Of a stretch of 64,000 nt of DNA, positions 44,337 to 46,401 are shown piece by piece (position 1 is the first letter of the stretch; each line of letters begins with the position of its first letter). The DNA lies in assembly GCA_944392935.1 (NCBI GenBank), contig CALXYI010000003.1, positions 1-64,000 on the forward strand. The letters run 5' to 3'. This DNA comes from an uncultured Spirochaetaceae bacterium (GTDB lineage: Bacteria; Spirochaetota; Spirochaetia; Sphaerochaetales; Sphaerochaetaceae). Below the pieces are notes generated by a model. It worked only from the letters and a program-made list of their open reading frames with translations. It had not been told where the DNA came from and ran no database searches. Position numbers and translations under genes: made by a program.

Positions 44337-44546
44337 CCGGGATAATTGCAGATTCACTACAGTCAAGACTTAGCAAATCGCTTCTTTACTGCAAGACTCC
44401 CGATTGACGAGGACCGCTTCGATGAGAATGGATCACTCTGAATCGAGTGGATGGATCTCGATTATCGCCGTACTCATCTGAAATCAAACATTCCTGATTG
44501 CAAAGCCCTTTTGCTCTATAGTAGAGTGAGTCTGATTTCCATTGAC

Positions 44547-44597
44547 GGAGGTAGTCGATGATTAGTGCAAGGGTTACCCCCCCCCCATCGCAGGGTG
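44547..44597 (+). promoter_or_regulatory. ribosome site, start codon and 10-C tract (candidate phase switch)
   Basis: GGAGG (44547-44551) lies 6 nt before ATG 44558. The run of ten Cs is at 44577-44586. From that ATG the frame with ten Cs stops after about 33 codons; with nine or twelve Cs it joins the lipoprotein frame and gives a longer, arginine-rich signal peptide start. Confidence 0.65.
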
Positions 44598-46349
44598 ATG
44601 CGTACATTTGCTTGGTCGATTTTAGCTTTATTCGCCATTCTTGCATTTCCATCCTGTGATGGTCACCTGGATTTACAGCCTCCCACGGATGATGAGGAAC
44701 GTCCTGTGGATTCCGATCTTCCACAGTATATTCCTGAAGCGGAGTTTGCCAGGATAGGGCTTCTTCCTCCTGAAGAGATGCCTGCAGGGGCAACTGTGGA
44801 TAAACGTTATGATTCCAGCCTTGCCAAGTCTTCTCTTTCAAGGGCTTCAGGAACGGGAGCGATGATTGCTGATATCACACTATCTGGTTATATGTACAAT
44901 GGTTACAGTTTCACAACCACAAATCCTGTCACTGTGACTTATCCTGCAGCACCTGCAGGGGAAGAAAATAGACATACGCTTGAGAAGTTCATCATCAATG
45001 TTGTTGATTTGATTATGGTTCCAGAAGGAGATGAAAACGGCAAGAAGGTCTCTGTCTTTGATTCTGCAGGGTACATTCCTTATGATGAGACCAAGGTAGC
45101 GGGCAATACTGTGATCACTGTTTCGGGTACATCAGTGACAGAAGTAGCGAATGTACCTGCATCCTCTGCTATAGTCCTGGATCCATATGAAGGCTCATAT
45201 GAGGTGAATGGAACGGAAGTCAGCAAGGAAGAAGCTGCAGGAATGGATGGCTCTGAAGAGAAGCCATATACGGTATCTAGGCTCAGTGATCTTCTTGTTC
45301 TGGATAGCCTGTTTGCTTCTTCCACGAGCGTTAATATCAGGCTTGAAAGCGATCTGGCTATAACAGCTGGGTGGGTAGTTGCAAATGATATGATGGATCC
45401 GATCACCATCTCTGCTGGGGAAAACGCAGCAATTGATTTCAATGGACATACGATTACATACGAAGTTGCTGGGGATCTCAGGCCATTCCTGGTGGAAAAG
45501 GGCGGTTCGCTGATATTCAATAACGGTCCATCCAATTCCATCGAGAATGGAAAAGGAGGAGTGACCATTACCAGCCCAGAAGCGCTTGGGCTTGTTGATA
45601 ACTATGGGAAGCTTACCATCAACGGCGGCAGTTATGACATCCGGACGAAACAGGGAACTTGTGCTATCAGATCGTTTGAGGATGCTACGATAACCATCAA
45701 TGATGCAAGATTCTATTTCCCGTATACAGGCGGAACGCTTCTCTCGTATGGAACTGCATATATAAACGATGGATATTACTATAGCAATTCAAACTCGCAG
45801 CTATATGGTGATCTGTATACATATAACATCAGGAATGCCGGCGGCAATATGATTATACGGGGCGGTGAGGTTTATGGCATTCAGGGTGGAATCTCTACTG
45901 CCTCTGGCTCGCTTGTTATTGATGATGTCTATTCTGAAACCGGAGAAAGAGAGGTAGAGGGGGAGATGGTGACAGCATCGTTCTATGCTGTTTATGTAGC
46001 AGGTGAGGCAGGTGAGACATCATGCACCATAAATGATGGGACTTTCGTTTCCGGTATCAGGAACGCCCTCCATGTAGGAAACAGCAATCCTGGTGGTGAT
46101 GGAGGAATCATGGCTGATGCTGCATGTGTGGTGAATGGTGGGACCTTCAGATCAAAAGAAGGCTCATATGATGTGGCTGTTGATTATGGAATCGGAGCGC
46201 TCACTCTTCGAGGCGGATCCTTTGCGCATAGGGCCGTCAACGTAACTGATGAGGGCACTGTAATCGAGCCATCAATCATTGATTCATACACAGCCAAGGG
46301 CTTCCACGTGGACGAGATGGCAGGAGGCTTTGCTGTTATAGCGGACTGA
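44598..46349 (+). CDS. putative surface lipoprotein with beta-helix-like repeats
   Basis: A 583-residue protein of unknown function. The signal region MRTFAWSILALFAILAFPSC ends in a lipobox-like FPSC, so it should be a lipoprotein. Acidic linker follows, then many short glycine/asparagine turns such as TINGGSYDI, TINDARFYF, IIRGGEVYG, TINDGTFVS and CVVNGGTFRS, suggesting a right-handed parallel beta-helix, as in surface and adhesin-like proteins. ATG 44598 is the only start inside the hydrophobic signal frame but has a poor ribosome site (AGGG 3 nt away). A better site and ATG lie upstream in another frame across the 10-C tract. Codon use and GC are lower than in neighbouring genes, suggesting acquired DNA. 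Confidence 0.7.
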   Translation: MRTFAWSILALFAILAFPSCDGHLDLQPPTDDEERPVDSDLPQYIPEAEFARIGLLPPEEMPAGATVDKRYDSSLAKSSLSRASGTGAMIADITLSGYMYNGYSFTTTNPVTVTYPAAPAGEENRHTLEKFIINVVDLIMVPEGDENGKKVSVFDSAGYIPYDETKVAGNTVITVSGTSVTEVANVPASSAIVLDPYEGSYEVNGTEVSKEEAAGMDGSEEKPYTVSRLSDLLVLDSLFASSTSVNIRLESDLAITAGWVVANDMMDPITISAGENAAIDFNGHTITYEVAGDLRPFLVEKGGSLIFNNGPSNSIENGKGGVTITSPEALGLVDNYGKLTINGGSYDIRTKQGTCAIRSFEDATITINDARFYFPYTGGTLLSYGTAYINDGYYYSNSNSQLYGDLYTYNIRNAGGNMIIRGGEVYGIQGGISTASGSLVIDDVYSETGEREVEGEMVTASFYAVYVAGEAGETSCTINDGTFVSGIRNALHVGNSNPGGDGGIMADAACVVNGGTFRSKEGSYDVAVDYGIGALTLRGGSFAHRAVNVTDEGTVIEPSIIDSYTAKGFHVDEMAGGFAVIAD

Positions 46350-46372: not shown

Positions 46373-46401
46373 GATCATCACCCTTCGACGGGGTGATGAT
46401 C
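46373..46401 (+). terminator. strong hairpin after the lipoprotein gene
   Basis: Perfect 11-bp stem (46373-46383 with 46391-46401) and 7-nt loop, 24 bp past the stop. The 3' side is TGTGCTTT, a weak T-run, so it may be a terminator or a processing signal. A TGCTATCAT element (46364-46372) abuts its 5' side. Confidence 0.5.

Follow-up and report, generated by a model that had tools for sequence, protein, structure and literature searches.

A ten-cytosine tract between leader and signal peptide as a candidate translational switch of a lipoprotein gene in an uncultured Spirochaetales genus

How a gene can be translated when its well-spaced ribosome site opens a different reading frame is the question raised by a lipoprotein locus in the window, the 64,000-nucleotide stretch of DNA analysed here, whose source genome assembly comprises 1.8 Mb in 66 contigs. 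On the forward strand, as for all features of the locus given below, a Shine-Dalgarno (SD) sequence GGAGG (44547–44551), read from the sequence and matched by a GGAG before the ATG of the orthologue in a related genome (G008), stands six bases from an ATG at 44558. This start and its leader codons (MISARV, 44558–44576), also kept in that orthologue, run into a tract of ten Cs (44577–44586), the proposed slippage site, recognized by sequence reading and run counts. With ten Cs, the frame of ATG 44558 (MISARVTPPPSQGD...) ends after 33 codons; the lipoprotein frame as assembled (44565–46349), which comprises a signal peptide, the lipobox FPSC with its Cys codon at 44655–44657 and a strand-rich C-terminal part, stays open over 594 codons, beginning at GTG 44565 and closing with a stop codon whose last base is 46349. 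The two frames fuse with 9 or 12 Cs, the nine-C form yielding a predicted N-terminus MISARVTPPHRRVMRTFAWSILALFAILAFPSC, and the tract is so positioned that a change in its length toggles the frame behind a proper SD-ATG start. The preliminary description of this DNA, which had proposed a well-spaced GGAGG and ATG, ten Cs with an ATG frame of about 33 codons, fusion at nine or twelve Cs, and an arginine pair before the hydrophobic signal and lipobox, is borne out on these points. Two alternative starts are in frame with the lipoprotein: GTG 44565, 13 nt from GGAGG, and ATG 44598, whose sole SD-like bases (AGGG, 44592–44595) are 2 nt away. The gene is flanked by a phosphofructokinase gene upstream and an M16-type peptidase gene downstream. 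A weak candidate promoter read by eye, TTGCAA-18-TAGAGT (44498–44527), lacks a G tract and aligns roughly with TTGTTT-17-TAGAAT of the G008 orthologue; a consensus scan returned no convincing promoter at the window gene and missed this one too, and inspection of the upstream sequence found no poly-G between a −35 and a −10 element. A terminator-like hairpin 3′ of the gene (46373–46401) is a consensus match, and the predicted RNA structure over the start region is no more stable than that of shuffled sequences.

A tract of this length is not what the composition of the genome would produce. In the window, runs of G or C number 277 of length 4, 57 of length 5, two of length 6, none of lengths 7 to 9 and one of length 10. 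A 367-kb sample of the window's genome, made up of contigs picked partly for containing tracts, gives 1644, 285, 18 and 0 for lengths 4 to 7 and 1, 1, 3 and 2 for lengths 8 to 11. C10 does not belong to a chance tail, and long G/C runs form a class separate from the chance length distribution. Close to contig ends, two tracts have in common a 127-bp end that probably belongs to an insertion sequence; they are unrelated to the window tract.

The encoded protein has the sequence hallmarks of a lipoprotein, with an n-region RR-V-M-R followed by a hydrophobic stretch and lipobox cysteine, AWSILALFAILAFPSC, and the cysteine is invariant among four homologues. Pfam assigned no family to it. An AlphaFold2 model built from four sequences has a mean pLDDT of 68, with a strand-rich region from about residue 280 mostly at pLDDT 80–95, and its PDB matches come largely from the beta-helix class (tailspikes, pectate lyases and SRRP adhesins), at a best E value of 5e-4 and a TM score of about 0.3. 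With regard to the beta-helix-like repeats announced in the preliminary description, the strand-rich C-terminal part of the model and these weak PDB matches make a right-handed beta-helix a plausible, even likely, fold for the window lipoprotein and not a proven one.

A search of 40 genomes found the protein encoded in three apart from the window's own, each of the same genus: G008, at 74% identity to the window protein, and G007 and G014, each at about 38%. A contig scan for a second strain of the window species gave only same-genus relatives that were already known and a single weak, unrelated match. In the G008 orthologue, where SD, ATG and leader are conserved, the tract is C6, which, like C10 in the window, exceeds an in-frame length by exactly one C and so leaves the gene out of frame. 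The tract length differs, C10 versus C6, between the window gene and its closest orthologue (in different species at 74% identity); it also varies among same-design homologous loci. Neither GTG 44565 nor ATG 44598 has a counterpart in G008, in which the earliest start codon of the lipoprotein frame falls within the hydrophobic core, and the SD-ATG is therefore the plausible start in both species. Comparison of the window and G008 genes over 574 codons gives a dN of 0.16, a dS of 1.6–2.0 and a dN/dS of about 0.1, which points to purifying selection on the protein despite the OFF state of both assembled genes. The C6 of G008 is the chief unexplained fact, since six Cs should slip rarely and the gene is nonetheless out of frame; this locus (L009:1434–1460), one base out, conserved, and devoid of a usable alternative start, could be either locked OFF or a frameshift site. 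The more distant G007 and G014 genes carry no 5′-coding tract; their G tract, G10 or G9, is instead part of a promoter-like spacer (TTGACA-N9-G10-TACGCT and TTGACG-N8-G9-TATTAT) followed by an SD-ATG, and the poly-G lies between −35 and −10 in homologue loci L010 and L011.

The design of the window locus recurs across the genus, which belongs to the uncultured Spirochaetales. A search of 48 same-genus genomes for SD-ATG-N6..36-tract, in which a locus was counted if some post-tract frame had a hydrophobic segment and a lipobox, returned 31 distinct lipoprotein loci with SD-ATG, n-region, C/G tract of 8–11, hydrophobic segment and lipobox, some of them members of one gene family and hence not fully independent. 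Their phases are evenly split, with 11 ON, 10 carrying one extra base and 10 carrying two (chi-square p 0.97). Such uniformity is predicted by free slippage; a fixed in-frame tract would leave all loci ON, and with a fixed recoding site the OFF copies would fall into a single class. For G-type coding tracts the reversed-pattern control could not be used, since the reversed pattern also picks up promoter-type tracts that precede a GGAGG, and phase statistics were used instead. Homologous loci differ in tract length and state, as in L137 (G10, OFF) versus L148 (G9, ON) and in the trio L039 (G10, OFF), L146 (G9, ON) and L147 (G11, OFF). The leaders are mostly charged n-regions (e.g. MKKRSLFTIIQ, MEKIRRSIL and MRKNHHTSR), and OFF copies retain long open frames, many of at least 500 codons, the maximum length scored, as expected under reversible silencing. 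The window's genome holds a second coding-type locus, L140 (G8, OFF). In several species (L014, L015, L100 and L110), C8–C12 also sits right after the start of a short gene that does not encode a lipoprotein (an MKKSKKV-like leader followed by INELFYL/EKIIDLY).

The promoter placement seen in the distant homologues is likewise common in the genus. The pattern TTGA-N8..14-G7-N0..6-TANNNT occurs in 40 of the 48 genus genomes, commonly 5–15 times each; the reversed pattern, used as a control, gave about five matches in total over these 48. In the window's genome (G000) there are seven such sites, each with G9 and each before a gene with a lipoprotein-type N-terminus. These seven TTGAC-N-G9-TANNNT lipoprotein genes are on contigs C11, C12, C22, C26, C32, C38 and C41 (L062 and L071–L076), and L076 has an A between the tract and the −10, with another G9 lying directly upstream. 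Among 129 genus sites listed, G length ranges from 7 to 12 (mode 9) and spacer length from 14 to 23 (mode 19), and 13 spacer sequences recur with differing G lengths, some inside one genome. The modal spacer exceeds the optimum of 17 reported for tp0126 of T. pallidum (PMC7864442). Across 393 genomes of the phylum, which represent 167 genera, a stricter form of the promoter was present in 76 genomes and 24 genera, against one reversed match overall. Poly-G spacer promoters are also present in other families of the phylum (e.g. G388, G414 and G324), on very long contigs, with up to 20 per genome (G324) and tracts reaching about 17 Gs. G000 has two further tracts. A G11 (L003:1501–1511; C8:3995–4005), for which no clear −35 could be placed, precedes by about 70 nt the start of a gene whose product has a PapD-like N-terminal domain. 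A G10 (L005:1501–1510; C11:34570–34579) falls, without breaking the frame, within the linker of a response regulator of OmpR type (Response_reg and Trans_reg_C), possibly a phase-variable regulator that would be ON as assembled.

Three other accounts of the window tract were weighed against this background. The gene might always be expressed from GTG 44565 or ATG 44598, both in the lipoprotein frame as assembled, with the tract an incidental leader, and initiation at ATG 44598 would indeed give an acceptable signal peptide, MRTFAWSILALFAILAFPSC. At 13 nt and 2 nt, however, SD spacing is poor for each of them, neither start is conserved in G008, and constant expression would leave both the tract and the genus-wide set unexplained, so that this account seems improbable. 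The narrower proposition, raised in the preliminary description as one that would speak against a switch, that translation starts only at ATG 44598 meets the same objections, a poor SD and a start that is not conserved in G008, where the SD-ATG is kept. Some low-level translation of the C10 form could nevertheless come from either alternative start.

A fixed out-of-frame tract could also yield protein by recoding, if the ribosome or RNA polymerase slipped on the C run. Programmed +1 frameshifting was considered because the window and G008 are both +1: a shift at CCC-C would suit C10 and C6 alike, each one base too long, and a tendency to +1 shifts is known for CCC-C, a frameshift-prone site for tRNA-Pro (PMC4519876, PMC6335274). 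Recoding would in addition account for the purifying selection in the window and G008 genes. The phases of the class are uniform, however, with in-frame copies, two-base shifts and G tracts, for which reason +1 frameshifting was set aside as a general explanation, and we rate recoding at the window locus a shade less probable than constant expression. That the gene is in fact in frame behind a tract of nine Cs, ten being an assembly or sequencing error, is very unlikely, even though the window sequence comes from a single MAG and homopolymers are prone to error: a tract one base off would remain far longer than chance, the even phase split over 31 loci would require about two thirds of the calls to be wrong, and promoter-type tracts are found in genomes with very long contigs too.

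The reading that we favour, at a probability of roughly 0.8, is that the C10 tract acts as a slipped-strand contingency switch at the translation of a phase-variable lipoprotein. Its support comes from the anatomy of the locus, the improbability of the tract, the uniform phases, the purifying selection and the alternative tract placement in homologues. Translation would start at ATG 44558, and the tract would gain or lose Cs during replication in living populations. With 9 or 12 Cs the leader would be in frame with the signal peptide and the beta-helix-type lipoprotein would be made (ON); tract lengths of 10 or 11 would end translation after a short peptide (OFF), the predicted state of the assembled ten-C sequence. 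The phase-switch candidate put forward in the preliminary description is supported by comparative data, namely the 31 loci of the same design, their uniform phases, the length differences between homologues and the poly-G spacers of distant homologues. The window locus would then belong to a genus-wide set of lipoprotein switches, with either a 5′-coding tract or a poly-G in the promoter spacer, and surface exposure and use in adhesion or in escape from immunity or phage may be supposed. We consider it probable, with less confidence than for the switch itself, that this uncultured Spirochaetales genus possesses combinatorial lipoprotein switches, with most species carrying from several to about fifteen poly-G spacers in each genome in addition to the signal-peptide G/C tracts in 5′-coding regions, and both placements in one protein family across species; the response-regulator tract may add a switch at the level of a regulator. 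If so, a good part of the lipoprotein surface would be switchable through two interchangeable tract placements, each switch state could be read directly from metagenomic reads, and one could test which surface proteins selection favours ON or OFF in a host and whether phage, immunity or adhesion is the driver.

To our knowledge, homopolymer phase variation in spirochaetes has been documented for a limited number of T. pallidum genes. Searches of the openly licensed literature, in part under a guessed family name, found nothing on this genus and no report of a genus-wide, two-placement switch set. The T. pallidum genes tp0126, tprE/G/J and tprL (PMC7864442) likewise combine a spirochaete host, poly-G tracts of about 7–11 and surface proteins, and the tp0126 tract lies between −35 and −10, as in L010, L011 and the genus promoter set. 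The window tract differs from these poly-G promoters in lying in the 5′ coding region of a gene with no promoter tract, in the proteins concerned and in being known here from sequence. Also related are the coding homopolymers that mediate translational phase variation in Neisseria hmbR/hpuA (poly-G; PMC3786947) and Listeria inlA (poly-A; PMC2831843), where length changes of a tract within the coding sequence, close to the start codon in the case of inlA, toggle the frame of a surface protein; the likeness is one of design, and the window tract is set apart by being a G/C tract between the n-region and the hydrophobic part of a lipoprotein signal peptide, an arrangement repeated at many loci. 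Promoter G or C tracts that alter transcription of porA and opc in Neisseria meningitidis (as in PMC7864442) resemble the promoter-type tracts of the genus, a likeness that concerns the homologues and other lipoproteins and not the window gene. The mechanism is therefore already known in kind and the locus itself is new, the more interesting part being the many-locus, two-placement scale in an uncultured genus.
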